Shown here: one piece after another, positions 2,979 through 17,716 of the stretch | How positions within the stretch are numbered: the stretch's first letter is position 1 | Layout of the letters: each line of letters opens with the position of its first letter | Assembly: GCF_003340345.1 (NCBI RefSeq) | Contig: NZ_PPTQ01000010.1 | Span: 62,001-126,000 of the forward strand | DNA: 64,000 nt | Origin: Paraeggerthella hongkongensis | GTDB lineage: Bacteria > Actinomycetota > Coriobacteriia > Coriobacteriales > Eggerthellaceae | Reading direction: 5' to 3' | Program-made: the position numbers and the translations under genes | Notes under the pieces: model-generated | Told to the model about the DNA's origin: nothing | The model's input: the letters and a program-made list of their open reading frames with translations, nothing else | Database searches by the model: none

Positions 2979-3161
2979 ATGGCGAAACGCAAACAATACC
3001 CCTTGCGCGTGGACCCCGCTTTATGGGAGGCCATCGAGCGCTGGGCTGCTGACGATCTGCGCAGCGTGAACGCGCAGGTGGAGTTTATCTTGCGTCGTGC
3101 GTTGAGCGAAGCGGGCAGGTTGAAGCCTCCGCCCCCGCGCGACGAAACCGACCTTGGGTAA
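2979..3161 (+). CDS. Small ribbon-helix-helix (Arc-type) protein
   Basis: A 60-residue protein starting MAKRKQYPLRVDPALWEAIERWAADDLRSVNAQVEFILRRAL. The pattern of a short basic N-terminal strand (KQYPLRVD), then helix A and helix B (SVNAQVEFILRRAL), is that of MetJ/Arc ribbon-helix-helix DNA-binding proteins. Target DNA is unknown. It follows the SPFH gene by 52 nt and probably shares its transcript. An ATG at 2979 fits the conserved start; a longer in-frame start at 2958 would run through the upstream hairpin. A truncated relative lies at 4812-4967. Confidence 0.75.
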   Translation: MAKRKQYPLRVDPALWEAIERWAADDLRSVNAQVEFILRRALSEAGRLKPPPPRDETDLG

Positions 3162-3167
3162 AAGGGG

Positions 3168-3234
3168 GACGGGGCCGACGATTCGTGTTTGACATCGGAA
3201 CGAACACGAGCCGTCGGCCCCGTCTTCTCGTTTT
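3168..3234 (+). terminator. Long-stem terminator after the RHH gene
   Basis: GACGGGGCCGAC (3168-3179) pairs with GTCGGCCCCGTC ending at 3224, with an inner CGTGTT/AACACG pairing, followed by TTCTCGTTTT. This is a strong intrinsic terminator. Confidence 0.85.
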
Positions 3235-3405
3235 GCTCTGCATGCGCGTTTCGCAACGATCGGCTCCTCTTTCGGAGAAGCGTCTTCTCGTTGATCGATT
3301 CGCTATGATTTTCAAAAGGAAGCCGCTACACTGGGGCAAAGGAGCGCCCGACGTGCGGTGCGTTGCGCGCTCGGCGCCAAAACGCTTCGAGGTTAGGAGA
3401 TCTGC

Positions 3406-4758
3406 ATGGAGGCTTCCGTTTACCCGAATCAACCCGAAACGCTGCAGGAAACCGTGGCTTTGCTGGAGAGGGCGTACCTGTACGCGTATCCGCTCGTGCT
3501 CATGGACGTCATCAAAGACCGGACGACGAACGTGGTGGTCCCCGACGCGGAGCACGCTCCCATCAACCAGCTGTTCCATGCTCAAACGCTGGCGACGCCC
3601 GATATGGTGAGCTTGACGCGTCCGAACGTGGATACGGTGTACTCGCAGGCTTATCTGGACCTGGGGGCCGAGCCGATTTTGCTGTACAAGCCCGCCACGG
3701 ATCGTTACTGCTCGATTCAGACGTTCGATGGGTACTCCAACACGCCCGTAGTGCTTGGTACGGGCGGAGTAGGGGGCAGCGATGCTGCAACCTACGCGTT
3801 TGTTGGACCGTTCTGGTCGGGCGAGCTTCCGCAGGGCGTGACCAAGGTCTCCATGCCCACGAATTTCGTTTGGCTGCTGCTTCGCACGAAGTGCTTTGGC
3901 GTTGACGACCTGCCGGGCGTTCGCGAGGTCCAGCAGGGCATGAGAATGCACCCGCTTTCAGCCCACGCGCTGGACGAGGGCGCGGGGTACGCGTGTCCGA
4001 AGGGGTCGTACGATCTCGCGTGCGACTACGTTCCCTTGGAGTTCATGCAACGTCTTTCCGTCCAGGATTTCTTCACGCGCTTCAACGGGCTGGCTTCGGA
4101 CAATCCGGGAGCCCCTGAGGACGCCCCGGCGCTGGCGCAATTCGAAACCGTAGGCATCGGCGCAGGGTTGACGTTCGACATCGCTGCCTTGGGGGAAGGC
4201 GTTGCCGAGGCGGCTGCGTATCTGCCGACGCTTCTGGATCGCGATTTCTCATCGGCTCATGCCAGCACCACCGTTTCGAACGGCTGGATGTTCATGGACG
4301 ATCGCGTGGACACGTTCGGCACCGATTACGCGTATCGCGCTGTGGTGGCGTTCGGCGGATTCGCCAATCCCGTGACCATGGCGGTGTATCCGTCGATGGT
4401 CGTGGATGCTGCAGGGAACCCCTTGCGCGGCGACAAGTCGTACCGCCTGCATTTTGCCGCGGGCGAAACCCCGCCCCATGCAAGCGAGGGATGGTGGTCG
4501 CTTACAGCCTACACCGAAGCGGGCCGGTTGATACCCAACGAGCTGAATCGCTACAACATCGGCGAGGTGGACGATCTGCCCTTCAACGAGGACGGATCGC
4601 TCGATCTGTATCTTCAGGCTGAAAAACCCGCAGACGATCGCGTGCGCTTCTGGCTGCCTTTGTGCGAAGGCGTATTCTCGTTGACGATGCGCATCTACCT
4701 CCCGGACGAGCGCGTGCTTTCTTTCGACTGGAAGCTTCCGCCGCTTGAGGTCGTATAG
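3406..4758 (+). CDS. DUF1254/DUF1214 domain protein
   Basis: A 450-residue protein with the two-domain arrangement of the DUF1254-DUF1214 family. The N-terminal half has AYLYAYPLVLMDV and LTRPNVDTVYSQAYLDL, the typical DUF1254 signature. The C-terminal half has GDKSYRLHFAAGETPPHASEGWWSLTAY and a closing WLPLCEGVFSLTMRIYLPDE, as in DUF1214. No signal peptide is evident. The biochemical role of this family is not established. AGGAG lies 7 nt before the start. It stands alone between a terminator and decayed copies of itself and of the RHH gene. Confidence 0.85.
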   Translation: MEASVYPNQPETLQETVALLERAYLYAYPLVLMDVIKDRTTNVVVPDAEHAPINQLFHAQTLATPDMVSLTRPNVDTVYSQAYLDLGAEPILLYKPATDRYCSIQTFDGYSNTPVVLGTGGVGGSDAATYAFVGPFWSGELPQGVTKVSMPTNFVWLLLRTKCFGVDDLPGVREVQQGMRMHPLSAHALDEGAGYACPKGSYDLACDYVPLEFMQRLSVQDFFTRFNGLASDNPGAPEDAPALAQFETVGIGAGLTFDIAALGEGVAEAAAYLPTLLDRDFSSAHASTTVSNGWMFMDDRVDTFGTDYAYRAVVAFGGFANPVTMAVYPSMVVDAAGNPLRGDKSYRLHFAAGETPPHASEGWWSLTAYTEAGRLIPNELNRYNIGEVDDLPFNEDGSLDLYLQAEKPADDRVRFWLPLCEGVFSLTMRIYLPDERVLSFDWKLPPLEVV

Positions 4759-4811
4759 CCCGACCTTGTGCACGGCCGTCGTGCGAGCTGGGTCGTGCAA
4801 GCCGCGGCACT

Positions 4812-4967
4812 ATGGTGGATCTCGTTTTATGGGAGACTGTCGAGCGCTGGGCTGCTGACAACCTGCGCAGCGTGAACGCGCAGGTAGAATTCATCCTGCG
4901 CCGCGCGTTGAGTGATGCTGGTAGGTTGAATCCTGCACCCTCGCGCGAGGAAACCGACCCAGAATAG
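4812..4967 (+). pseudogene. Truncated duplicate of the RHH gene (2979-3161)
   Basis: The 51-codon frame MVDLVLWETVERWAADNL... matches residues ~11-60 of the RHH protein almost throughout (SVNAQVEFILRRALSDAGRL against SVNAQVEFILRRALSEAGRL). It lacks the N-terminal basic beta-strand that such proteins use to contact DNA. No convincing ribosome-binding site precedes it. I read it as a decaying duplicate. It could still make a dimerising peptide, so loss of function is inferred. Confidence 0.7.
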
Positions 4968-4970
4968 AAT

Positions 4971-5114
4971 GAGGACGGTCGCTCGACCTGCATCTACAGG
5001 TTGAAGGATCCATAAACGATCGCGCGCTCTTGGCTGTCTTTACGTCAAGGCGCGCGTTCTTTTGCAACGTGCATTTGCCTTTCGGCTGTGCGTGCGTTCG
5101 TATTTTCTCCGTGA
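4971..5114 (+). pseudogene. Decayed duplicate of the 3' end of the DUF1254/DUF1214 gene
   Basis: Starting GAGGACGG, this stretch aligns by eye with positions 4588 to about 4735 at the end of the intact gene (for example CGATCGCG, then TTGGCTG against CTGGCTG), with many substitutions and small indels and no open frame. It abuts the truncated RHH copy directly. Together they look like the remains of a tandem duplication with an internal deletion. Confidence 0.65.
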
Positions 5115-5173
5115 GCCATTCGCAGGGTTCTCTTGAAAAATGTTAGCTATTTAAGGCATGTTCGTCTATATTA

Positions 5174-5209
5174 TGTAACCATAAGGTTACATGTAATCAT
5201 ACGGTTACG
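5174..5209 (+). promoter_or_regulatory. Two abutting 18-bp dyads, likely repressor/activator sites
   Basis: TGTAACC-ATAA-GGTTACA (5174-5191) is a perfect dyad and TGTAATC-ATAC-GGTTACG (5192-5209) is a near-copy placed immediately after it. They lie about 50 nt before the start of the SipW/TasA locus, close to A+T-rich promoter-like sequence (TATATT 5167-5172, TATAAA 5211-5216). The binding protein is not identifiable from the site. Confidence 0.6.
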
Positions 5210-5261
5210 TTATAAAGCGCGCAGCCGTGCGCCGCGAAGGGGCGTACGGAGTGCAATTGAC

Positions 5262-6576
5262 ATGGCGAGAAGGACGATCGGTTTGACTGAGAAGCGTGTG
5301 TACAGCCTGACGGGGGGGGGGGGCTCTTAAGATAAGTGCGCGTGCTCTCTGCGCGGCGCTCCTCTTGCTTCTCCTGCTACTTCCATGCGCGTCGTCGGCG
5401 TATGCCGATGATCGGTCCAACGTCGAGCTTTCGCTTGTTCAAGGCATCTCTTCGGTCAATCGTCCTTTCTCTGTTTCCAACCTGCTGCCGGGCGATGACG
5501 AATCCATCGACGTTCAGCTTCTCGTTGCGCACGTCGATGCGCTTTCCGTGTGGTTCCAGGCCGATGTCGTCGAGGATCCCTCCGCTCTTTCCCGTGCGCT
5601 CGAGTTGCGCGTAGTAGACGTCGCGTCGAACGTGATGATCTGGCAAGGCACGCTCGATGACCTAAACGAACATCCGGTTTCCGTGCCCGTATCTGCAAGC
5701 GAGGGCGGCGAAACGACGCTCTCATGGCGAATTGAGGCAGGGCTGCCTGCTCAAGCTGGAAACGAGTACCAGCTGGCCCGCTGCACCGCCGACCTTCAGT
5801 GGTACGTACAGGGCGACGATCAGTCGAAATTGACCCCTTTGACCTCTACCGGCGATAGCCTGCCCCATGTGCTGCTTGCGCTTGCCCTCGCGGTGGGTAC
5901 GGGGGCTCTTGCGATCGTCGCGATCCGTCGCAGGCGCGCTGCGCTCGCCGTCGCCGACGTTTCCTCATCGGCTCCGATGGGCGCCCATGCGGCTGTTTCC
6001 CCAATCTCGTCCGATGACGAAGATGGAGACGACGACGCAGCGGCGGCTCGGCGTCGAGGATTGCTGACGTGCCTTGCCGTCGTTGCGGCATTGCTTCTTG
6101 TGGCTGCGGCAGCATGGGCCCTGATCTGGGCGCGTGCGAGTCTTCCCCAGAGCGTGTTCGAAACAGGATCGGTGGCCGTGCAGCTCAACGACGGGCACCC
6201 CGTATTTCCAGAGGGTTCCGTTTCCCTTGAACCTGGCAGCACGGTGGTGCGGGAATTTTCCGTGGGAAACACCGGTACTGCCGATGTTTTCTACCGAATC
6301 TATCTGGAGAACTTGCAGGGTGGTTTGGCGTCGGCTCTTGACGTGCGGGTTTTCCGGGGCGAGACGATGCTGTACCAAGGCAGTGCCTTGGGGTTGGAGC
6401 AGCGGGATGCGTGTGTGTCCGATAAGGTGCTCGCGCCGGGACAGACCGACGTTCTTCGTATCGAGGTGCGCATGGCCGATGGATCCGGCAACGGATACCA
6501 GGGGGAGGACGTTTCGTTTGACCTGTGCGCTCAGGTCGTGCAGACGAAGAACAACGAGGGGAGGGATCTCTCGTGA
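5262..6576 (+). CDS. Membrane-anchored TasA-like protein, frame-off by a poly-G tract
   Basis: From ATG 5262 (GGAG 10 nt upstream) the frame reads MARRTIGLTEKRVYSLTGGGGS and stops at 5330, just after a 12-G run. Removing one G joins it to the long frame ending at 6576, giving about 437 residues. The joined frame then has a full signal peptide (ALCAALLLLLLLPCASSAYA), a ~150-residue external domain, a membrane segment (VLLALALAVGTGALAIVAI), an acidic cytoplasmic loop, and a second membrane segment (LLTCLAVVAALLLVAAAAW). A TasA/camelysin-like domain follows (FETGSVAVQLNDG, then VGNTGTADVFYRIYL, YQGEDVSFDLCAQVVQTKNN). Without the frameshift the only in-frame start is TTG 5365, inside the signal peptide. 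Phase variation is the simplest reading; a sequencing error in the run is the alternative. Confidence 0.72.
5312..5323 (+). repeat. 12-G homopolymer tract (putative slippage switch)
   Basis: Twelve consecutive G within codons 17-21 of the 5262 frame. With 11 or 14 G the frame continues into the long ORF; with 12, as here, it ends at TAA 5328-5330. Tracts of this kind are the classical contingency-locus mechanism. Confidence 0.85.
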
Positions 6577-7052
6577 AGCCCTTCCGTGAAACGGCCTTCT
6601 GGAGCGCGCGCATCGCGCTGCTGGGAAGCGCTGCACTTCTTGCGCTGTCCATCCTTCTGATGACGGGAGCGACGTATGCGTGGATGAGCGATTCGGTGGT
6701 GAACCGGGGAAACGTTCTGCGGTGCGCCGATTCGGGACCCGCTTCGTGTGAGAGTGAACCGGTGACCGATCCTGGGGGCGAAGGAGACCCCGTTGTCACG
6801 CCCATCGGGGACTCCGCTGCCAACGGAAGCGTCACGTCGGATGGCGATAGTGAGGCAGCTGGCGATGGCAGCAGCGCTTCCGCGCCGAACGGGGGTCTCG
6901 CGCCCGGGCAAGATTCACCGGTTGCGCCGGGCGCGGTCGAGGGTGGTGGCCTAGAGCTGCGAAGCGGGTCTGCAAGCGAGATGATCTTTCCGGTCTCCTC
7001 TTCCGAACAGGGTTTCGATCTGGTTCCGAAGCGGATTGAACGAGAGGGGTGA
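6573..7052 (+). CDS. Short SipW-type exported protein without a TasA domain
   Basis: GTG 6573 overlaps the previous stop (GTGA) and is preceded by a purine-rich GAGGGGAGGG, so translation is probably coupled to the upstream gene. The 159-residue product has a hydrophobic segment (IALLGSAALLALSILLMTGATYAW) followed by MSDSVVNRGNVLRC, matching the SipW-dependent pattern F/M-x-D-x-V-x-N-x-G-N. The rest is a low-complexity Gly/Ser/Pro/Asp tail and a short conserved-looking end. The beta-sandwich of TasA relatives is absent. It may be a minor or adaptor component; that is a guess from position. Confidence 0.65.
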   Translation: MKPFRETAFWSARIALLGSAALLALSILLMTGATYAWMSDSVVNRGNVLRCADSGPASCESEPVTDPGGEGDPVVTPIGDSAANGSVTSDGDSEAAGDGSSASAPNGGLAPGQDSPVAPGAVEGGGLELRSGSASEMIFPVSSSEQGFDLVPKRIEREG

Positions 7053-7158
7053 TGGCCCATAGGGAAGAGGAAGTTGTCGAAGGGGCTTACTGCCCACGTG
7101 CCCTGCGCAAAGCCTTTCGGTCATGAACGCGGCGCGAAATATTGAAGGGGATGAAAGT

Positions 7159-7311
7159 ATGGAGAAGACCAACAACAAGAAGCTCATAGCCAGCGCAACG
7201 CTCATCGTGGCATCGATCGCGCTGCTGCTGGGCCTGACGTTCGCCTGGTTCACGGACACCGTGGCCAACAAGGGGAACAAGATACAAGCAGGTACACTTA
7301 AGGTGCAGCTG
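7159..7311 (+). repeat. Direct repeat, copy 1 (5' end of TasA-like gene)
   Basis: These 153 bp encode the signal region and match 8693-8845 with about nine mismatches by eye, three of them in the first ~125 bp. Downstream the two genes diverge strongly. Confidence 0.85.
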
Positions 7312-8640
7312 TACGATACGGTGACGACAGCCAGCGGAACTGTGCCCGAAAAAGAGATCACCAATGCCGGCGAAGCGATCTTTGGAATCGAGGAATTGAG
7401 GGAACCCGGCGCTCGAACAGCCGAGCATGTTCTTCGGGTTGCCAACAATGGAAGCGTCGCTTTGAAGTACGAGATATCCTTCCAGAAGATTGATGAGGGG
7501 CCGTCCGGGAGCGCGATAGAGAACGTCATCGACGTGTATCTGGGTGGTCAGAAGAGTGGGGTGCTCGCCGATTACCTGAGCGGGGCCAAGTCTATTGTGT
7601 CGCCTGACGGCGTTCTCGCCGCGGGGGCTTCCACGACGCTCCCCAGGGTTCAGCTCGCCATGCAGGAAACAGCGGGCAACCAGTATCAAGGCATGCAAAC
7701 GCAGTTCGACGTCATTTTGGTGGCTACGCAGGCTACGGGCGAGGCCGACGGCTTCGGGAACGTGGATTACGACAAAGATGCGACCTATCCTTGGGATGGC
7801 GTCACGGTGACGCCGGTCGCGCCGGATTCGAATGGTGCGTACAACCTCAGTTCGGGCGCTGAGCTGGCTTGGGTATCGCAAGAGGTTGCCAGCGGCACGT
7901 TCGGAAGCGCGCGGTCGGGTGCCGGCCCCGTAGTCGTGCTGCAGAACGATATTGATCTGGGCGGCAATGAGTGGATTCCCATAGGTGGCGACGTGGCTTT
8001 CACCGGAACATTCGACGGCAACGGCCACACCATCACCGGCTTGACCGCCTCCTCGAACGCTTTGGCCGATGACCCCACGAGGGGAGTCGCCCTTTTCGGC
8101 TACGCAGAGAATGCCACCATCAAGAACCTGAAGATAGACGGTTGCTCCCTTTCGGGACGCTATGCGGTTGCCGCCGTTGTGGGCGATGGGTGCGCGCCCC
8201 TCGTGTTCGAGAACGTGGAGGTTCTGGGTGGTACTATCCGGGCGGATCAGAACTCGGGCGAAAGAATCGCGCAGGTTGCGGGAGGCCTGCTCGGCCAAGG
8301 TTTCGGCCCCGATGGCGCTTCGTCTGGCGAATCCATCGTGTTCAGGAACTGCACGAACGGGGCGAGCGTTTTCGTGAACAAGCAGCATGCGGGTGGCTTG
8401 TGGGGTTCCATCACGCAGGCGTCCGGGGTTGATGTGAAGGCTGAGAATTGCTCCAACCGCGGTGCGATCACCGTGTCGGAAAACGGCGTGGGCTATGCCG
8501 GCGGTCTGGGCGCGTATGTCTCCGCGGCTTCCTGCACGGTGTCGGGATGCTCGAATTCGGGAATTGTCTCGGCTCCGAGTATCGCTTCCAATTTCGTTGC
8601 GTGGTGCAACGGCGAATCCCTCGATGGGAATGCGGCATAG
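7159..8640 (+). CDS. SipW-dependent TasA-like protein with GLUG-type repeats
   Basis: A 493-residue protein. Residues ~5-45 form a SipW-type signal (LIVASIALLLGLTFAWFTDTVANKGN, cleavage expected near the Trp-Phe-Thr-Asp). Residues ~45-215 are TasA/camelysin-like (IQAGTLKVQL, VANNGSVALKYEISF, AGNQYQGMQTQFDVILVATQAT). From ~240 the protein turns into GLUG-like beta-helix repeats (DIDLGGNEWIPIGG, FTGTFDGNGHTITGL, VAGGLLGQGF), as found in surface adhesins. No LPXTG anchor is present. ATG 7159 is used because of the purine-rich GAAGGGGATGAAAG upstream and the identical start of the next gene. Confidence 0.8.
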   Translation: MEKTNNKKLIASATLIVASIALLLGLTFAWFTDTVANKGNKIQAGTLKVQLYDTVTTASGTVPEKEITNAGEAIFGIEELREPGARTAEHVLRVANNGSVALKYEISFQKIDEGPSGSAIENVIDVYLGGQKSGVLADYLSGAKSIVSPDGVLAAGASTTLPRVQLAMQETAGNQYQGMQTQFDVILVATQATGEADGFGNVDYDKDATYPWDGVTVTPVAPDSNGAYNLSSGAELAWVSQEVASGTFGSARSGAGPVVVLQNDIDLGGNEWIPIGGDVAFTGTFDGNGHTITGLTASSNALADDPTRGVALFGYAENATIKNLKIDGCSLSGRYAVAAVVGDGCAPLVFENVEVLGGTIRADQNSGERIAQVAGGLLGQGFGPDGASSGESIVFRNCTNGASVFVNKQHAGGLWGSITQASGVDVKAENCSNRGAITVSENGVGYAGGLGAYVSAASCTVSGCSNSGIVSAPSIASNFVAWCNGESLDGNAA

Positions 8641-8692
8641 ACGCTCACACTGCCGCAAAGTGTGGTACTGAACAGTGGAGAGGAATCGGTTC

Positions 8693-8845
8693 ATGGAGAA
8701 GACCAACAACAAGAAGCTCATAGCCAGCGCGGCGCTCATCGTGGCGTCGATCGCGCTGCTGCTGGGCCTGACGTTCGCCTGGTTCACGGACACCGTGGCC
8801 AACAAGGGGAACAAGATACAGGCGGGCACGCTGAAGGTACAGCTG
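8693..8845 (+). repeat. Direct repeat, copy 2 (5' end of TasA-like gene)
   Basis: Second copy of the signal-region repeat, 1,534 bp from the first. Recombination between the copies would delete one gene body and fuse the other to the upstream start. Confidence 0.85.
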
Positions 8846-10090
8846 CTCAACGGGACGGATGACATCGGAGTCTCGTCGACTCCCGTGTTCGCCTACGATA
8901 CGTGGGAGCCGGGCTATTCAACTGCGAAGGCGAGCTTGTCCGTGAAGAACAACGGCTCGCTTGCTGTGAAGTACGAGCTGCGTCTTCAATCGGGAGAGAT
9001 GAGTCAGAGCAAAGGGATGGAAAACGCCATCGACGTGTACGTGGGCGACCAGATTTCGGGTACGCTCGCCGATTACCTGGGTGGCTCCAAGACCCTTGAT
9101 TCGGGCACCTTGACGGCAGGAGCCTCGTCCACCGCCAAGGAGGTTTACCTTAAGATGAAGGAGAGCGCCGGCAGCCAGTACCAGGGTGCCGTAGCGGATT
9201 TCGACATTTTGCTGGTGGCCACCCAGGCGACAAGCGAGATCGACGGCTTCGGGAACGATCAGTACGATAAGGATGCGAAGTATCCCACTGTGGTTGCTAC
9301 GCCCGCCGAGTTCGAGGCGGCTATAGCTGAGGGCGGTATCGTTCAGCTTGCAGAGGATGTTGTGCTTGACGGATCCAAGACGATTGCTGCAGATACCACG
9401 CTCGATCTACGAGGCAAGACGCTAACTGTCGGTAACGGCGCTGACTCGCTTAAGGCTGCAGTGGGAACCACGCTTACTATTGAGGGAAGCGGCACCATTG
9501 AAGGTGTTGTGTATGCAGACAATAAATTCAACAATGGAAGCACGATTGTGATCGATGCTAGCGACAACTTTGTCGTCAGTTCTTCTCACGATTGGGCGGT
9601 ATATGGAGGCTCTGGAAGCAATATCGTAATCAACGGCGGTACGTATACTGCTACGCAGAAAGGCGCCGGGGTTATTCATTGTCTGGGGTCTTCGCTTACA
9701 GTAAGAGATGCGATTATCACTGTTGGTTCGGCTACGGTGATGAACTCTTCTGGAGTGCGTTCAAGCGCGGCAAACACGTATCTGGAGAACGTGACGGTCA
9801 ATGCCAATTACAGTACTGCAGTTGATTTGACTTCTGAGTATGGGGCTACGGTGATCAAGGGCGGCTCGTTTACGACCGATAAAGAGTCGAGCGGTTTTTC
9901 TAGTCCCACGATTAGCTATCAAGGTACGTTGGACATCTCCGATGCCACTATCACGCGTGTGAATACGGGGATCGAATATGCGAGGTCTTGGCCTACGCCT
10001 ACTGAGGTTGAAGGTCTTGTGTATTCCGGCTTGACGTTTGTTAAAGCGAGTAATTGCATTGGCGACGATATTGATCTTAGGTCTAAGTAG
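8693..10090 (+). CDS. SipW-dependent TasA-like protein with parallel beta-helix passenger
   Basis: A 465-residue protein starting like its neighbour (MEKTNNKKLIASAALIVAS...FAWFTDTVANKGN). The TasA-like part (to ~residue 205) has VQLLNGTDD, VKNNGSLAVKYELRL and AGSQYQGAVADFDILLVATQAT. The remainder reads as a right-handed beta-helix (DLRGKTLTVGNGADS, GTIEGVVYADN, NIVINGGTYTATQKGAG). GGAGAGGA precedes the ATG. The passenger DNA, roughly 9400-10090, is visibly more A+T-rich than the neighbours, which suggests a separate origin. No cell-wall anchor motif is seen. Likely a second fibre or adhesin subunit processed by the peptidase downstream. Confidence 0.8.
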   Translation: MEKTNNKKLIASAALIVASIALLLGLTFAWFTDTVANKGNKIQAGTLKVQLLNGTDDIGVSSTPVFAYDTWEPGYSTAKASLSVKNNGSLAVKYELRLQSGEMSQSKGMENAIDVYVGDQISGTLADYLGGSKTLDSGTLTAGASSTAKEVYLKMKESAGSQYQGAVADFDILLVATQATSEIDGFGNDQYDKDAKYPTVVATPAEFEAAIAEGGIVQLAEDVVLDGSKTIAADTTLDLRGKTLTVGNGADSLKAAVGTTLTIEGSGTIEGVVYADNKFNNGSTIVIDASDNFVVSSSHDWAVYGGSGSNIVINGGTYTATQKGAGVIHCLGSSLTVRDAIITVGSATVMNSSGVRSSAANTYLENVTVNANYSTAVDLTSEYGATVIKGGSFTTDKESSGFSSPTISYQGTLDISDATITRVNTGIEYARSWPTPTEVEGLVYSGLTFVKASNCIGDDIDLRSK

Positions 10091-10275
10091 CGCTTGGGCA
10101 ATTCACGGTGTTTGTCATATGGTTGCGTGGTTTTTTAAGCAAGGACGCGTACGCGGTTTACTGCCGATATTCGCAACAAAGGTTTCGCTGTTGTGGAAAG
10201 CTAACAACACTGGCACCTGCACCGTGATGCGGGCGTAAGGCTCGACAGGGGGCAAGGAACCCGCGAGGCGGGCAG

Positions 10276-10305
10276 ATGGGCGGGGCGCTTTCGCGTTCCG
10301 CCCAT
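10276..10305 (+). promoter_or_regulatory. Hairpin just upstream of the signal peptidase gene
   Basis: ATGGGCGG (10276-10283) pairs with CCGCCCAT (10298-10305), with further GCG/CGC pairing inside. It ends about 10 nt before the AAGGAGG ribosome-binding site of the peptidase gene. The rest of the 10091-10322 gap shows no gene. The hairpin could tune peptidase expression relative to the substrates. Confidence 0.45.
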
Positions 10306-10322
10306 GCATTTCAAGGAGGAAC

Positions 10323-11213
10323 ATGTCATTTCGTAAGGTTTCGAGCGTCGTCGCCAGCGTGCTCACGACCGTCATCTTCGTGGCAGCAGTGTGCTTCACG
10401 GTTGTCGTGGTGGCCACCACGCTCGCATCGGGCAAGGGCGAGGCCACCTTCTTCGGCTGGAAGCCTTACATCGTCCTGTCCGACTCTATGCAATCGGAGT
10501 TTCAGGTGGGCGACATCGCGTTTTCGCGCGAAGTGGATCCTGCGACGCTTCAACCGGGCGACATCGTCACGTTCGCTTCCATCGACCCCGATAGCTACGG
10601 CGAAATCTTCACGCACAAGATTCGCGAAGTGACCGAGTACGAGGGCCAGCCCGCGTTCGTTACCTACGGAACAACCACTGGCGACGACGACGTCTATCCC
10701 GCGCCGTTCAGCCGCGTGGTGGGGCGCTATGCCTTCCATGTTCCCAAGGCAGGCTACGTGTTCGAGTTCTTCAAGTCGCCTATGGGATACGTTGTGCTGG
10801 TGCTGGTTCCCTTCAGCATCCTCATCGGGCTGCAGGTGCGCAACTTCCTGCGCCTGTTGAACGAGGAGCGCCACCAGCGCGCTCTTGTCCTGGCTGGCGA
10901 ACAGCGTCGGGTGGCCGAGATGCAGGCGGAGATCGACCGGCTGCGCGCGGGGGCGAGGACGCCCGTGCCGGTTACCGCGTCTCAGATGGCTGACGTGCCG
11001 CCGGTTGCTGTTCCGATTGACAACGCGCTCCCGGCTTTTGTACCCGATGCGAATAGGGACTTGCGACCTGCGTCCTCGTCCGCAGTTCCTCGTGCGGCGC
11101 ATGTTGCGCCGTTGCGCTCGCGTTCCGACCTGCGCCCCGACTCCTCAGTCGACCTTCGTACTGCCGACCGTCCTGCTCGGGATAAGTCCCGACGCGGAAA
11201 GCATGCGCGCTAG
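10323..11213 (+). CDS. ER-type (SipW-like) signal peptidase I
   Basis: A 296-residue membrane protease expected to cleave the SipW-type signals encoded just upstream. An N-terminal membrane segment (residues ~7-32) precedes the catalytic SDSM motif with Ser55. In box D the sequence is THKI with His98, so the base is His rather than Lys, the hallmark of archaeal/ER/SipW enzymes. A second membrane segment follows at ~155-180, then a charged coiled-coil-like helix and a basic, Pro/Arg-rich tail. AAGGAGGAAC precedes the ATG. Position at the end of the locus mirrors the sipW-tasA association known in Bacillus. Confidence 0.85.
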   Translation: MSFRKVSSVVASVLTTVIFVAAVCFTVVVVATTLASGKGEATFFGWKPYIVLSDSMQSEFQVGDIAFSREVDPATLQPGDIVTFASIDPDSYGEIFTHKIREVTEYEGQPAFVTYGTTTGDDDVYPAPFSRVVGRYAFHVPKAGYVFEFFKSPMGYVVLVLVPFSILIGLQVRNFLRLLNEERHQRALVLAGEQRRVAEMQAEIDRLRAGARTPVPVTASQMADVPPVAVPIDNALPAFVPDANRDLRPASSSAVPRAAHVAPLRSRSDLRPDSSVDLRTADRPARDKSRRGKHAR

Positions 11214-11278
11214 CTGCGCTCACGATTTGCCGCGGGTAAGCGGTGAAAACGGCTTGTCAGTACGGTCTCCGGAAGGGG

Positions 11279-11287
11279 TGCTATACT
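11279..11287 (+). promoter_or_regulatory. Extended -10 promoter for map
   Basis: TG-C-TATACT lies 50 nt before the map start codon. No good -35 is seen at 17 bp, consistent with an extended -10 promoter. Confidence 0.5.
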
Positions 11288-11336
11288 GGTCGGCGACAAG
11301 AGAACAGGCACGTTAGAGGCAAGGTGCGTTGAAAGT

Positions 11337-12107
11337 ATGATCATAAAGAAGTCGAAGGCCGAGATCGAGGCCATGAAGGAAGCCGGTCGCATTTCGGCTT
11401 TGGTGCTGCGCGAGGTGGGACTCCATGTTCGAGCGGGCGTGTCCACGCTTGAGCTGGACGAGCTGGCGGAAACCATCATCCGTGCAGAAGGCGGCATACC
11501 TGCGTTCAAGGGCTACGGCGGATTCCCCGGCTCGATTTGCGCATCGGTGAACGACCAGATCGTGCACGGCATCCCTTCCGCGAACGTGGTGCTCAAAGAC
11601 GGCGACATCCTGTCCGTCGATACGGGTGCGACGGTTGACGGCTGGGTGGGGGACAACGCCTGGACCTACCCCGTAGGGAAGATTTCGGCCGAAAAGCAGC
11701 GCCTGCTCGAGGTGACCGAGCGGTGCATGTGGGCGGGCCTTGACGCTGCACGGCCCGGCAATCGTCTGGGCGACATCGGGCATGCGGTGCAGTCCATCGC
11801 CGAAGCGGCGGGCTTCGGCGTGGTGCGCGAGTACGTGGGGCACGGCATCGGACGCGATATGCACGAGGATCCCAACGTGCCGAACTTCGGCCGGAAGCAT
11901 ACGGGCGTCAAGCTTGAGGTTGGCATGGTGCTGGCTATCGAGCCTATGGTGAACGTGGGAACGTACAAGACGCGCGTGATGCCCGATGGATGGCTGGTGT
12001 GCACGCGCGACGGCCTGCCTTCGGCTCACTTTGAAAAGACCGTGGCAATCACCGAAGACGGTCCGCTTATCCTGACCACGGAAGAGGGGCACGAGCGCCC
12101 GGTGTGA
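11337..12107 (+). CDS. map: Methionine aminopeptidase, type I
   Basis: A 256-residue cytoplasmic metallopeptidase that removes the initiator methionine. All five metal ligands of the family are visible: Asp in LSVDTGA and Asp 11 residues later in GDNAW, His in GHGIGRDMHE, Glu in LAIEPM, and Glu in HFEKTVAI. The substrate-binding His is in VHGIP. It stands as a single gene with its own promoter and terminator, unlike the adk-map-infA arrangement of many bacteria, so a second map may exist elsewhere. Confidence 0.94.
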   Translation: MIIKKSKAEIEAMKEAGRISALVLREVGLHVRAGVSTLELDELAETIIRAEGGIPAFKGYGGFPGSICASVNDQIVHGIPSANVVLKDGDILSVDTGATVDGWVGDNAWTYPVGKISAEKQRLLEVTERCMWAGLDAARPGNRLGDIGHAVQSIAEAAGFGVVREYVGHGIGRDMHEDPNVPNFGRKHTGVKLEVGMVLAIEPMVNVGTYKTRVMPDGWLVCTRDGLPSAHFEKTVAITEDGPLILTTEEGHERPV

Positions 12108-12127
12108 TCGCCTAAAGACTCTATGCA

Positions 12128-12162
12128 AAACGGAAGGCCCTCATGACGAGGGCCTTCCGTTT
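12128..12162. terminator. Bidirectional terminator between map and a convergent flavoprotein gene
   Basis: AAACGGAAGGCCCTC (12128-12142) and GAGGGCCTTCCGTTT (12148-12162) form a perfect 15-bp stem with A/T-rich edges, suitable for both strands. Confidence 0.9.
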
Positions 12163-12184
12163 GGAGGGGGGAGGGACGGTTGGC

Positions 12185-13780
12185 TTAGGCGCCGTAGTAC
12201 TTCATGGCTTCCTGAGCGGCTATGCGACCCGTCACGGTGCCCATACACATGGAGGCGCCGCTTACGGCATAGCGCATGTAGAACAGCTCGGCGTTGGCGA
12301 TGGTGCCGCCACCGTACAGGCCGGGGATGGGCTTGCGATCCTTGTCGAGCACTTCCGCCTTGGTGCTGATGGCAAGCTGGCCGAACGAGTCGTTGGTGTT
12401 CGGCGTGATCTGGACGGCGTAGAACGGCGCCTGCACGACGGGCTGAAGATCTTCGGGCTTCTTATGGAAGGCCGGGTCCTCGCCAGCTTCGCAGAGCTTG
12501 TTGTACTGCTCGATCGTCTTCGTCAGGGGATAGCCGGGCAGACCTGCTTGCTCGGCAAGCTCTTCGATGGTGTCGGCGGTGTTGACGACGCCTTTTTCGA
12601 CGCCCTTCTTCAGCAGCTCCATGCGCTTGTCGGTCTGCTGCGAGTCGCAGATGATGAAGAACTCTTTACGGCCGCTCTGAATGAACGGCGTGAAGTAGTC
12701 GAATTGGCTGGTCATGGATTCGTTCGCGCAACGGTAGCCAAGGTCGGTTACGAACACGCCCGTGTTGATCATGCGCAGCTGCGACAGCTCGTCGTTGAGC
12801 GGCAGGGGCTCTTTGCCCACCAGATGGATCTGCGAAAGGCCGCCCTTGAGCAGCGTGAGGGCTCCGGCGTCTTTGCCCAGCTCGATGCCGTCGCCCGTGT
12901 TGCTGGGACTCGAGAAGGTGTGCCAGCCCACCGTGCCGGGTGCGTACAGCTCTTTCGACCAGTCCTGACCGTCGAACCCGCCGGAAGCCAGCATGACCGC
13001 TTTGGCGGAAATCGTGTACTCGGTGTCGCCCTGGCGCGCGACCACGCCGGTTACCTTGCCGTTTTCGGTGAGGATCTTGATAGCGCGCGTTTCCATCATG
13101 ACTTCAGCGCCGTTTTCCTCGGCTTTGGCGATGAGCGTATCGATAATGCCCTTACCTCCGTTGGTGGATACCATGGAGCGGTCGGACACGCCGTCGCCGG
13201 GCTTCTTCTTAAAGTCGCAGCCGAAGCCGACCAGCCAGTCCATGGCCGCGCCGCCGTTTTCCGCCACCATGCGGCAGATGTCCATGTTCGCGTCTCCGTC
13301 GGACTGATCGAACAGGAACTGGGCGATTTCTTCAGGGGTGCCGTAGTTGGTAAGGCCCATGTCGTCTTGCTTCTTGGAGCCGCAGCAGTAGAAGTTGCCG
13401 GTGCAGATGGACGAGTCGCCGCCCGAAACGGAGTGCTTTTCGAGCACGATGACGCGCGCGCCTGCGAGAGCTGCTTCGGTGGCGGCGCTCATGCCGGCGA
13501 TGCCGCTGCCGATGACTACGATGTCGGTGTCCTTCGATTCCTGGGACTTGGCCGGCGTCTCTGCAACTGCCTGAACGGTATCCGCTTTGGCCGTGTTGCC
13601 GCTTCCGTTCGAAGCGCCGTTGGATTCCTGCGCGGCGGAGCCGGTGCTTGCCTGCGGTGCGCAGCCGGCAAGTCCGCTGCCGGCAACTACGGCAGCCGTT
13701 GCGCCCAAGCCGAGCAGAAACGAGCGACGCGTGAATCCTTGCGATGCAGCCTCGGCAGCTTCGATACCCTTGTTGTGCAT
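12185..13780 (-). CDS. Tat-exported FAD-dependent reductase (fumarate-reductase family)
   Basis: A 531-residue secreted flavoprotein. The N-terminus has a twin-arginine signal (FTRRSFLLGLG) that ends in a lipobox-like LAGC, so it may be membrane-tethered outside the cell. An FAD Rossmann motif (IVVIGSGIAGMSAATEAALAG) follows at about residue 86. The FAD_binding_2 fold continues with NTGDGIELGKDAGA, CANES, and GLYGGGTIANAEL...GASMCMGTVTGRIAA. Some substrate-site residues resemble fumarate reductases (Arg in TGRIA, His in IHLVG), but the usual HHTMGG segment is replaced by ITPNTNDSFG, so the acceptor is unlikely to be fumarate. GGGAGG precedes the ATG. A LuxR-type regulator lies upstream on the same strand, a pairing typical of Eggerthella-type reductases. 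Confidence 0.85.
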   Translation of the reverse strand: MHNKGIEAAEAASQGFTRRSFLLGLGATAAVVAGSGLAGCAPQASTGSAAQESNGASNGSGNTAKADTVQAVAETPAKSQESKDTDIVVIGSGIAGMSAATEAALAGARVIVLEKHSVSGGDSSICTGNFYCCGSKKQDDMGLTNYGTPEEIAQFLFDQSDGDANMDICRMVAENGGAAMDWLVGFGCDFKKKPGDGVSDRSMVSTNGGKGIIDTLIAKAEENGAEVMMETRAIKILTENGKVTGVVARQGDTEYTISAKAVMLASGGFDGQDWSKELYAPGTVGWHTFSSPSNTGDGIELGKDAGALTLLKGGLSQIHLVGKEPLPLNDELSQLRMINTGVFVTDLGYRCANESMTSQFDYFTPFIQSGRKEFFIICDSQQTDKRMELLKKGVEKGVVNTADTIEELAEQAGLPGYPLTKTIEQYNKLCEAGEDPAFHKKPEDLQPVVQAPFYAVQITPNTNDSFGQLAISTKAEVLDKDRKPIPGLYGGGTIANAELFYMRYAVSGASMCMGTVTGRIAAQEAMKYYGA

Positions 13781-13904
13781 GATGTCCTCCCAATCCTTGC
13801 GATTTCGCGAACCTCCCTGTTCGCTCTGGGCCCATCATACGAACGGAGGAATCTCGAACCAGCACCAAAAGGGGTGGGGAAGGTGAAATCGTCAAGCAAA
13901 GCCG

Positions 13905-13929
13905 CCCACCCTCCATAATGGAGGGTGGG
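13905..13929 (-). terminator. Stem-loop between the LuxR gene and the flavoprotein gene
   Basis: CCCACCCTCC (13905-13914) and GGAGGGTGGG (13920-13929) pair perfectly with a 5-nt loop. On the minus strand a T-rich but interrupted tail follows. It probably ends the LuxR transcript; strength is uncertain. Confidence 0.55.
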
Positions 13930-13984
13930 GCTGACGGCTACTTTTTGAATGCTTTGACCTGCGAAAATCGATGCGGCAAGACGC

Positions 13985-15469
13985 CTATAGCGCCGTGCGG
14001 TCGCGATAAAGCTCAACGCGATCAATGAGGTCTTGCTTGTCGATCGATCCTGTTTTTTGATAGACGTTGTGGATGTAGCCCTTGATGGTGTTGGGCGACA
14101 GGCCAAGCTCGGCTGCGATGTAGGTGCGTGTTCGTCCCTGGCAGAGCAAGGCGAGGACTTCGCTCTCGCGTGCGGTCATGGCGTGCTTGTCTGCGAAGGC
14201 CCGAAGAAGCGCGGCGGGGTCCTCGCGGTTTTCGGGCGCGGGCGAGTTTGCTTGGCTTGCATGTTCGGAGTTGTCCGCCTGCTTTTGGATTCTGCGTTCG
14301 AGCCGCGTGGACAAAACGGGGTTCATGGCCAGCACGAACAGGGAGGTGAGCGATATGAGGGCCAGCCCGGTTGCGGGGCTGCCCTGGGCCAAGACCCGCG
14401 CCCCTAGGGCCACGCCGGCAAGAATGAGCAAGCCGCCGATGCCCAGTGCGGTTCCCAGGTACACCCAAAGCGACACGTTGTCACGTTCGCTGAGCTGGCA
14501 TACGATGATGCGCACGTTCATGCAGGAAAGATAGAAGGCTACGAATACCAGCACGGTCGCGGCGATGTGCGCCGCAGGCGAGGTGACGAAGGGCAGCGCG
14601 ACAAGGGCGATGGCCACGATGGGGAACAGCATGCCGTACAGGTCCGACACCTGAACGGCGCGTTTGCGCAAAAACGAAGCGCCCAGCATGACCATCGAGG
14701 CCACGACGATTCCCAGCATGGCTTGCGCCTGGATGGGAATGATGTCGGTTTCGGCAGTGGCAGCAACCTGGCTGACGGCTCCGAACGCGAACGAGAACAC
14801 CGCCAGATACGAAACGGCTTTCACGAAATCGATGACGCCTGCTTCCGAGATGCTGATGCGCCTTCCCGCCGCTTCAAGCTCCTGCCGAGCGATCAAAGGC
14901 ACCGCCGACACGATGATTATGGTAAGCGCGAATGCAAGCTCCATGATTCCGCTTGCCCAGAAGATGATGGTCGCCGCGATTCCGCCTATCAGGTAAGCTA
15001 GGGGGATCGCGCGCGCCAGGGAAGGGCCGCCTTCTCTCGAAAGCGCGGATATTCGCCCTATCCATCCCAATTCCGCAGTTGCAAGACCGTATCCGATACT
15101 GCCCGACACCACGATGGCGTAGAGCCATCCGCCCTCGATTGCCCCAAGAAGCCGAGCAAGCATGAGCGCGTTGCCAAGGAACGCCGCACCGAATGCCGTG
15201 GCCATGCGCAAGCGATGCTCCGCCTTGCGGCGAAACACGTGAAGGGCCGCCGTGATCAGCATAGTGGCCGTGTACGCGATGAAGAAGAGCGCGCCAAACG
15301 AGTTCCCGGCTCCGTGCGAAAGACTCATTTCCTGCAGAAACGTGCTCGATATCATGAGCGGGAACGTGAGCCCGCACACAATGCCGTAGCCCGCGGAGAC
15401 CGTGATCAGGCTGCGAAAGCCGTGGTGCACGCTGCTGCTTCCCGTGCTCGAGGGGGCGTGGGCGTCCAT
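13985..15469 (-). CDS. LuxR-family regulator with MFS-like membrane domain
   Basis: A 494-residue protein. About 12 hydrophobic segments occupy residues ~20-400, an MFS-like fold without obvious transport motifs. The C-terminus (~430-494) is a LuxR/GerE DNA-binding domain: MTARESEVLALLCQGRTRTYIAAELGLSPNTIKGYIHNVYQK. It presumably senses a small molecule at the membrane and controls the neighbouring flavoprotein, but the ligand is unknown. Its ATG lies 1 nt after the stop codon of the upstream ATP-grasp gene, so the two are translationally coupled. A paralogue is at 22611-24092. Confidence 0.85.
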   Translation of the reverse strand: MDAHAPSSTGSSSVHHGFRSLITVSAGYGIVCGLTFPLMISSTFLQEMSLSHGAGNSFGALFFIAYTATMLITAALHVFRRKAEHRLRMATAFGAAFLGNALMLARLLGAIEGGWLYAIVVSGSIGYGLATAELGWIGRISALSREGGPSLARAIPLAYLIGGIAATIIFWASGIMELAFALTIIIVSAVPLIARQELEAAGRRISISEAGVIDFVKAVSYLAVFSFAFGAVSQVAATAETDIIPIQAQAMLGIVVASMVMLGASFLRKRAVQVSDLYGMLFPIVAIALVALPFVTSPAAHIAATVLVFVAFYLSCMNVRIIVCQLSERDNVSLWVYLGTALGIGGLLILAGVALGARVLAQGSPATGLALISLTSLFVLAMNPVLSTRLERRIQKQADNSEHASQANSPAPENREDPAALLRAFADKHAMTARESEVLALLCQGRTRTYIAAELGLSPNTIKGYIHNVYQKTGSIDKQDLIDRVELYRDRTAL

Positions 15470-15470
15470 G

Positions 15471-16760
15471 TTACTTCAGCTGCTTGCCGTCGGTATCCCA
15501 GTAGAAGCGCTTGAACTTCGGGATTTGGTTCAGGTGCATGATGCGTGCCCACATGTTGTGCATGAACGAGTCCGACCCGTAATGCAGCGGGTAGGGCTCG
15601 GCTGTGCGACGCAGCACGTCAAGGGCTTGTTGCAGGCGCGCGCGGTTCTCCATGCTGCGGTCGAGCACGTAGCGGGGCACGCAACTGTACACGAACGGGT
15701 CGTACGCTTCGCGGTAGTCGATGCGCTCTCCCAAGATGAATTCCCGCACGATGAGCGTGACGAAGTTCACGCCGCCCAAGCTCATGTAGTAGGTGTTGCG
15801 CCCGCAGCGCGTGTTCACCTCGAAGAACCGGAAGGATCCGTCGCGTTCGTCGTACTTGATGTCGAAGTTCGCGAATCCTCGGTACCCGATGCGGGCGAGC
15901 ATGCTCTTTGCGGCCTCGATGATGGCTTCTTCGCGTTCCCCCATGATGCACAGCGGGTTGCCGAGCGCGGTGGGGTCGTGGTCTTGAAGGCATACGACGC
16001 CGCCCGACACCACGCGCATGTCTCCCGACGCGTCCGAGAACGTGGTGAGCGTGCGGATGGCGTCGTCGCCGCCGGGGATGAAGTCTTGCAACACCAGTTC
16101 GTTGTTGTAATCGGACGTGCGGATGCTGCGCCACACCTGGGCAAGCTCTTCCGGCGTCTCGATCTCGTAGATCTTGCGCCATCCCTCGATGGTGGCGTCT
16201 TGGAACTGCGCCGAGTTCGAGGGTTTGGCGATAAGCGGGTAAGGGAAGTCGTGCACGGGCAGCTCGTCGGGACCGTTTTCGCCGCAGTCGAAGTACCAGG
16301 TGCGCGGGTAGGGGATGCCCAGTTCTTCGCACAGTTCGTAGAAGCGCCGCTTCTGCGTGATCTCGTCAAGCAGATCGAAATCGATGTAGGGGACCGTGTA
16401 GCCTGCGGCCTCCAGGCGCGCCTTCCCGGCGGACAGCATGCGCGCGTGGCAGTCGTCGCAACCTAGGACCAGCAGCACGCGGTCGGGATCTTCGGCGTGC
16501 GTCTGCGCGGCAACGCGCTCGAGCGCATCGTACAGGCCTTCCGGATCGTGGATGAGCGGCTCCAGGCGATAGTCGGTGAAGCGGCTGCTCGACAGCATCT
16601 TGATGTCCTGCGTTGCCAGCACGATGGTGCGTTCGACTTGGTAAGCGCGATGGAGTTCTCGCACGTAGCTGTACGCCAGGATGTCGCCGCCTACGACGAC
16701 GGGCTGCAAGCGATGTCGCACGTCGGCAGGGTTCGTGATGCGGGGGTTCTGCACGGTCAT
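15471..16760 (-). CDS. ATP-grasp carboxylate-amine ligase-like protein
   Basis: A 429-residue cytoplasmic enzyme with an ATP-grasp fold: an N-terminal Rossmann-like part (VVVGGDILAYSYVRELH), the ATP-clamp region (YPLIAKPSNSAQF, LVLQDFIPGGDDAIRT), and the metal-binding end (FFEVNTRCGRNTYYMSLGGVNFV, where the family has E-x-N-x-R). It resembles D-aspartate ligases and related carboxylate-amine ligases, so it could modify peptidoglycan or make a small peptide; the substrate cannot be read from the sequence. AAGGAG lies 8 nt before the ATG. The following LuxR gene begins 1 nt after its stop. Confidence 0.75.
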   Translation of the reverse strand: MTVQNPRITNPADVRHRLQPVVVGGDILAYSYVRELHRAYQVERTIVLATQDIKMLSSSRFTDYRLEPLIHDPEGLYDALERVAAQTHAEDPDRVLLVLGCDDCHARMLSAGKARLEAAGYTVPYIDFDLLDEITQKRRFYELCEELGIPYPRTWYFDCGENGPDELPVHDFPYPLIAKPSNSAQFQDATIEGWRKIYEIETPEELAQVWRSIRTSDYNNELVLQDFIPGGDDAIRTLTTFSDASGDMRVVSGGVVCLQDHDPTALGNPLCIMGEREEAIIEAAKSMLARIGYRGFANFDIKYDERDGSFRFFEVNTRCGRNTYYMSLGGVNFVTLIVREFILGERIDYREAYDPFVYSCVPRYVLDRSMENRARLQQALDVLRRTAEPYPLHYGSDSFMHNMWARIMHLNQIPKFKRFYWDTDGKQLK

Positions 16761-16896
16761 TCTTGAATCTCCTTGTGGGTCGAAATCTTGCCTATTATCC
16801 CACAGTGCGCGCGGCGGCGGCTGCGTTTCGCGAAAGTGCCCATATCGCGTTTTCGTGCTTTCGCCGCCGCGCGTTTCGACGGTGGGGCCGAGGTTC

Positions 16897-17038
16897 TGTC
16901 AAAACCAGCGAGTTTTGCGGCGATTTTTCGCCCTGTCGAGGCAATGTGGTTATGAGCGTTTTTTATCATGCCTGATCACAGGCTTGCAGGTTGGGTTTAT
17001 TCTGGGTTGAGGACCAGCAAAACTCTTCCGTTTTGACA
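16897..17038. repeat. 142-bp MITE-like element, copy A
   Basis: It starts TGTCAAAACCAGCGAGTT and ends with the near-inverse, giving ~22-bp imperfect terminal inverted repeats (16897-16918, 17017-17038). A second copy of the same length is at 58287-58428, sharing the left end and the GCGGCGATTTTTCGCCCTG block. No coding capacity. The rest of the 16761-17133 gap shows nothing else recognisable. Confidence 0.75.
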
Positions 17039-17133
17039 AACTTGCAACGTTCAAGCGGGACGCGCTCCGCCACAACGTGCGCGGTCCGCTTGCTGACGGG
17101 CTTGGCTCCGCGCGCCCGCGCCGCGCCGGTCCC

Positions 17134-17481
17134 TTATTGCATGTCGAAAGACATCAAGAAAAGAAGAAAGACCTGGATGGCGTTCATGCTTATCTGGGCG
17201 AAGAGGAGAAGGGTGCGCCCTCCGTGTGCGTCGGTGCCGTGTACAAGGCCCATCGCAGCTAGCTTGTCCATGAACGCGTACATGACGGCGAACAGTGCGC
17301 AGCAGCCCGTCATGAGGAAGCCCATTTCAAACGCTTCGTATTTGGAACCGATGCGGTCGACGCCGTTTGCGCCTATATGGAGCGGAACGGTATCGGGCAT
17401 AGCGAACAGGACGGCGAGCCCTGTCGTGACAAGGGGGAGGGCGGCAAGCGCGATCATTGCGATCAGTCCGGAGCGTTTCAT
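17134..17481 (-). CDS. Small DUF1648-type membrane protein
   Basis: A 115-residue protein with three to four hydrophobic segments (IAMIALAALPLVTTGLAVLFA near the N-terminus, FLMTGCCALFAVMYAFM mid-protein, IQVFLLFLMSF at the end). The loop after the first segment, MPDTVPLHIGANGVDRIGSK, is the DUF1648 signature also seen in SdpI-type immunity proteins. ATG 17481 is preferred because AAAGGA precedes it; an upstream ATG at 17499 has no such site. It is a single gene, divergent from asnB. Function unknown. Confidence 0.75.
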   Translation of the reverse strand: MKRSGLIAMIALAALPLVTTGLAVLFAMPDTVPLHIGANGVDRIGSKYEAFEMGFLMTGCCALFAVMYAFMDKLAAMGLVHGTDAHGGRTLLLFAQISMNAIQVFLLFLMSFDMQ

Positions 17482-17716
17482 CGCTGTCCTTTGCTGCATG
17501 CGAGCTTTGAAGCCGACTCTTGAGCGGGATGCTTGGACTCAGGGTCGGCCGGTCTTGTTCTTCCAGTTTACGACAAATCGCTTGTTCTTGCGCTCCCTGC
17601 GGGTTTCGTGAAATGCAAGCAGGAGGGGAACGGGTGGCGTATTATATCGAACGTTAACGACGTAAACCCGTGCCGCGCGGACAAGGCGGCGCGTACGCAG
17701 GAGGAGAGCCAGCTAC

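Follow-up and report, generated by a model that had tools for sequence, protein, structure and literature searches.

The matrix operons of Bacillus (tapA-sipW-tasA) and of B. cereus (sipW-calY) bring together a dedicated SipW-type signal peptidase and TasA/CalY-like proteins, along with an extra first gene, and we know of no poly-G switch in them. The operon described here is alike in uniting a SipW-type peptidase and TasA/CalY-like proteins behind an additional first gene (gene A), although the latter encodes a protein with two transmembrane segments and two beta domains, and is set beside TapA of Bacillus by operon position. Poly-G tracts in promoter spacers underlie the phase variation of porA and opc in Neisseria.

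Switching by poly-G tracts has been described for the sortase-dependent pilus operons bbr_0113 and bbr_1889 of Bifidobacterium breve UCC2003. According to the accessible part of the report (PMC9187656), tract lengths varied in the population, pili were made by in-frame strains and polarity was discussed; the same part also mentions promoter-spacer G-tracts. As portrayed there, the B. breve operons share with our locus a short upstream frame, an intragenic G-tract and an out-of-frame exported first gene that heads the operon. They differ in encoding a sortase and LPXTG pilins, whereas our locus encodes a SipW-type signal peptidase and TasA/CalY-like proteins, and in that the Sec signal of bbr_0113 lies in the upstream frame, while the signal peptide here follows the tract. 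Furthermore, length variation and phenotype were demonstrated in B. breve, whereas the switch considered here is proposed from sequence.

Within the Eggerthellaceae, reversible surface variation is on record for the capsule of Eggerthella lenta, which, in the portion of PMC13174815 drawn on here, varies by megabase inversion (that is, by recombination and not by tract slippage, although slippage is named there as a general mechanism); E. lenta prophages carry diversity-generating elements (PMC8778435, likewise drawn on in part). Slipped-strand poly-G switching has been recognised in bifidobacterial pili and in pathogens, and this locus adds a probable member. The literature searched, which left most subscription papers outside, yielded no description of a poly-G repertoire in Eggerthellaceae, and its full texts yielded no paper on SipW in Eggerthella.

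The twelve-G tract and the operon behind it

The window (i.e. the whole stretch of 64,000 nucleotides of Paraeggerthella hongkongensis DNA that was analysed) carries the following features, given with the evidence for each:

4791–11270, no strand assigned: accessory block carrying the operon (55 unrelated nt at this site in the sister genome G001)
5166–5217, no strand assigned: AT-rich operator-like palindrome pair, putative control region (repeat search)
5262–5330, forward strand: short frame from an ATG that runs into the tract, with 22 codons plus stop at 12 G (translation; GGAG at 5248–5251; coding statistics)
5312–5323, forward strand: 12-G tract, proposed switch (sequence and run counts)
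5324–6576, forward strand: gene A, with signal peptide, beta domain, transmembrane segment, linker, transmembrane segment and second (TasA/CalY-like) beta domain (open reading frame, alignment, model and fold match)
6573–7052, forward strand: gene B, short protein with a GTGA overlap with gene A and a weak match to a SipW-dependent-type signal peptide (TIGR04088, 13.6 bits, under the cut-off of 19)
7123–8640, forward strand: gene C, predicted TasA/CalY-type exported protein (PF12389, 23.7 bits, cut-off 22.5; TIGR04088, 15.5 bits, under 19)
8675–10090, forward strand: gene D, predicted TasA/CalY-type exported protein with a SipW-dependent-type signal peptide (PF12389, 25.7 bits; TIGR04088, 19.7 bits, cut-off 19)
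10323–11213, forward strand: SipW-type signal peptidase (TIGR02228, 89.9 bits, cut-off 51.85; NF046067 SipW, 91 bits, under the cut-off of 190)

An earlier note on this DNA had claimed that the 12-G run puts the long frame out of register and that the frame from ATG 5262 halts just past the run, and both statements are borne out by the sequence. The short frame (GGAG 10 nt 5' of its ATG) translates as MARRTIGLTEKRVYSLTGGGGS and ends at TAA 5328–5330, while the long 1.2-kb frame ends at TGA 6574–6576 and is closed 5' by TGA 5308–5310. As the note also held, at 12 G the long frame is left with a TTG alone: its signal peptide is well-shaped and has no in-frame ATG or GTG 5' of it, the earliest ATG, GTG or TTG being TTG 5365, within the hydrophobic stretch. 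Since the signal peptide has its positively charged residues between the tract and this codon, initiation at TTG 5365 would lose them. The fusion of both frames by the loss of one G, put forward in the same place, follows from simple arithmetic, by which the registers match at 11 G and likewise at 14 G; the reported GTGA overlap with the next gene is equally present, GTG 6573–6575 overlapping TGA 6574–6576.

Through the 15 codons preceding the tract, the ATG 5262 frame is the sole open frame of the forward strand. By coding statistics, 6.6% of in-frame windows score as low as these codons and 24.7% of off-frame windows as high, and one reverse-strand frame outscores the ATG 5262 frame there; we count this low coding score against a frameshift switch.

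The five genes form a predicted SipW/TasA-type export operon headed by gene A, in which the peptidase scores above the cut-off of TIGR02228 (while falling under that of NF046067, the Bacillus SipW equivalog), genes C and D above that of PF12389 and only gene D above that of TIGR04088. Gene A reaches 16.6 bits against PF12389, under the cut-off of 22.5, and no sortase or LPXTG families were found in genes A–D and the peptidase by Pfam and NCBIfam scans. The structure model of gene A is of low confidence (mean pLDDT 66). In a Foldseek search with this model, the TasA fibre 8aur_A ranked third and was the sole match with an rmsd <5 among the 50 listed, the top two being Bacteroides surface glycan-binding chains (rmsd >29); a profile search of solved structures returned a single weak match (E 0.2). 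At three Firmicutes loci each half of gene A has its relative in a gene of its own; the two genes are neighbours and are followed by one that is SipW-like by eye. Gene A aligns with five homologues at 39–48% identity, and, because it is open over 403 codons apart from the tract and conserved in five genera, a plain pseudogene is disfavoured.

Long G-runs in the genome and in homologous operons

In the window, G/C runs number 273 at 4 nt, 61 at 5, 4 at 6, none at 7–11 and one at 12, and by extrapolation of the 4-to-5 ratio 0.002 runs of >=12 would be expected. Genome-wide, runs of exactly 7, 8 and 9 G number 18, 5 and 4 (exact counts made separately, the run histogram over fetched stretches being biased because most of these were picked for their tracts). 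Runs of 10, 11, 12 and 13 number 6, 3, 4 and 2, i.e. 15 in all with the window's included, against an expectation for runs of >=10 of 0.5 (from the 8/7 ratio) or 3.6 (from a more generous fit). In this genome, long G-runs stand apart as a class of their own, and the tract lies far above background length. By whole per-genome counts, runs of >=10 are present in 109 of 137 family genomes (this one included); some runs, located at contig ends, may be artefacts.

Context readings were made for 8 of the 15 long runs, the window's among them. Ahead of a LysR gene (C12:95584; L014 5085–5097), 13 G stand between TTGTC and TATATCAT, and the orthologous tract of the sister species has 10 G (L107 1500–1509) within surrounding DNA that is 95.7% identical. 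Ahead of a LuxR-type gene (C19), 12 G are placed between TTGTGC and TATCAT, 16 nt apart. An 11-C run (C50; L017 5073–5083) marks the point where a 511-codon frame without Pfam match gives way to the one that encodes a GerE (LuxR) DNA-binding domain, and is a possible second frameshift switch; a 10-nt run (C52; L018 5036–5045), located in frame in the first part of a sugar-transferase gene that follows a NusG-like gene, is a possible capsule switch. Another 12-G run (C12:12136; L013 5037–5048), about 310 nt 5' of a SpaA-domain surface gene, falls within a leader frame of 161 aa that ends in a stop overlapping the ATG of that gene, and a second SipW-like gene comes after it. Finally, a terminator-like hairpin (C45; L016 5066–5109) has a stem built from 10-G and 12-C runs; at least 2 of the 15 long runs thus belong to a terminator stem, so that not every long run can be taken for a switch.

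The first scan of genome contigs detected no relative of gene A, and a second, alignment-based one detected 7 loci. Matches to gene A occur in 8 of 138 family genomes, of which G083 (a weak partial match) was excluded, which leaves seven operons, that of this genome among them, spread over five genera. The closest named relatives of gene A belong to Adlercreutzia sp. ZJ141, an uncultured Gordonibacter, an Eggerthellaceae MAG and Eggerthella sinensis DSM 16107. Class-wide, 40 of 396 genomes match the gene A profile; those listed beyond the seven operons cover the profile in part, several with internal stops, and were not counted as homologues.

Three congeneric operons (G053 and G056 with 11 G; G055, Eggerthella sinensis, with 9 G) bear the tract 5' of gene A in the context TTGTYTGC[Gn]CTCTATSAT, with a putative hexamer spacing of 16 nt at 11 G and 14 nt at 9 G. 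The operon of G031 has 9 G, 26 nt 5' of the ATG of its TasA-like gene; its gene A has no ATG or GTG in frame with the signal peptide and is preceded, across 6 G, by a short frame that opens with ATG, a layout that resembles that of the window, though the run is short. No run of >=8 was found in the operon stretches retrieved from G137 and G041. The tract is accordingly found in a putative promoter in three of the six homologues and before a later gene in one, and is absent from two. G-runs occur in the operons of 3 of the 5 genera, for which the rough chance is 0.003, or 0.03 without the window's genus (taking the operon as 7.5 kb and scaling the densities from those of runs of >=10). The earlier note had suggested that homologous loci be compared for a tract at the same codon, and here the outcome is negative: none of the six carries >=8 G there, which, with the lack of a tract in G137 and G041, we count against the switch reading.

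A candidate translational switch and its alternatives

We consider it probable that the tract serves as a slipped-strand phase-variation switch of the operon, acting by translational frameshift; a translational on/off switch is the most likely reading in view of how the frames are arranged, of the excess of long runs and of the layout shared with the B. breve pilus operons. The earlier note had read the run as a contingency tract, and this gains support from the same excess, from the 13 versus 10 G at the orthologous tract elsewhere in the genome and from the G-runs in homologous operons of two other genera. Slipped-strand mispairing at replication would change the tract length, and translation, which we infer to begin at ATG 5262, would pass through it. 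With 11 or 14 G, reading would continue into the signal peptide and gene A would be made (ON), while 12 G (as sequenced) or 13 G would bring a stop within few codons (OFF). Gene B would fall with gene A through lost coupling at their overlap; genes C, D and sipW would probably fall in part by polarity, by analogy with B. breve. Gene A may act as a membrane-anchored partner of the TasA/CalY-like exported proteins and their signal peptidase, and, given an operon of this composition, a population would mix fibre-bearing and bare cells.

The tract could instead form the spacer of a promoter (CTGACG ... TAAGAT, 15 nt at 12 G), its length tuning transcription and not the frame. This alternative is a real one, because Eggerthellaceae seem to use poly-G promoter spacers. 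Among 78 distinct tracts of >=9 with 60-nt flanks (a non-random sample, with single-base shuffles as null), a -10-like hexamer lies within 10 nt downstream in 13 (6.1 in shuffles, a count reached in 7 of 2000), and is joined by a TTG at the -35 position in 6 (0.84 in shuffles, reached in 0 of 2000). With the orthologous sets (L040/L041/L042 and L014/L107) collapsed, the tracts number 10 for the -10 hexamer and 4 for both hexamers, the null remaining that of the uncollapsed 78. We propose such a role, of the Neisseria type, for the tracts of G055 and its two congeners, whose operons show the arrangement, and for those in the LysR and LuxR promoters of this genome, and do not favour it for the window's tract. 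The latter does have TAAGAT 4 nt downstream, but upstream only CTGACG, without TTG, which puts it outside the 6 tracts with both hexamers; moreover, the -35-like TTG alone is not enriched among the 78 (9 observed, 8.6 expected). A transcript from this promoter would start inside the signal-peptide sequence, leaving only TTG 5365 without the charged n-region, so that gene A would be deprived of a credible signal peptide; for the window we regard a spacer role as unlikely.

An absence of any switching, either since the tract was miscounted (truly 11 or 14 G, with the gene on) or since gene A is a fixed lineage-specific pseudogene, appears improbable. Homopolymers are difficult to count (a warning voiced for G-tracts in the accessible part of PMC9187656), and the count is based on a single draft assembly (2.86 Mb, 53 contigs), with one genome per species compared. 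Nevertheless, the excess of 10–13 runs and the 13/10 difference between orthologous tracts indicate tracts that are real and mutable, gene A is open over the rest of its length and conserved, and the tract is distant from the contig ends (C2:67312 of 140,733). We see a slimmer chance still that the 12 G are constant and that some gene A is produced by transcriptional slippage or ribosomal frameshifting on the run. A short frame, a slippery run and a long frame would serve such a mechanism, yet RNA folding around the tract is not unusual (z -0.92), and the promoter-position tracts, together with the 13/10 difference, point to slippage at the level of DNA.

Beyond the translational switch favoured for this locus, we give roughly even chances to a family-wide poly-G repertoire in Eggerthellaceae that has surface fibres, capsule genes and transcription regulators under its control, and in which different genera equipped the SipW/TasA operon with a switch independently (as a frameshift tract in one case, in a promoter spacer in another), so that selection would keep the switching and not the site. 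Eggerthellaceae include common gut bacteria; if the repertoire is true, each isolate or assembly would represent one of many expression states, genes taken as broken may merely be off, and fibres, capsule and regulators could vary inside one clone in the host.

The upstream region and the accessory block

Upstream of the operon, two operator-like palindromes (5175–5190 and 5193–5208) are situated 18 nt apart; their pattern has 3 matches in the window at <=2 mismatches (shuffle mean 0.72). The single other match of the palindromic operator in the genome, at <=1 mismatch, is at C23:35718. Between 4700 and 5500 no sigma-70-type promoter on the forward strand passes the scan, which we count against the frameshift switch; the scan of this region gave one promoter-like site (reverse strand) and one terminator-like site (1.2 expected). 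Inside the operon, shuffles predict 1.7 promoters and none was found, and terminators are not above shuffle level (6 found, 4.9 expected).

The flanks are collinear in the sister genome G001 (window 3391–4790 at 90.7% identity and 11271–19003 at 92.7%) with 55 nt between them (L127 4207–4261), which marks the operon as part of an accessory block of 6.48 kb. Two stretches are duplicated near its border (3009–3172 with 4815–4978, and 4597–4649 with 4979–5031, at 82% and 77% identity): the originals lie left of and within the neighbouring DUF1254/DUF1214 gene, and the copies adjoin each other at the block's left edge, possibly as a trace of its insertion.
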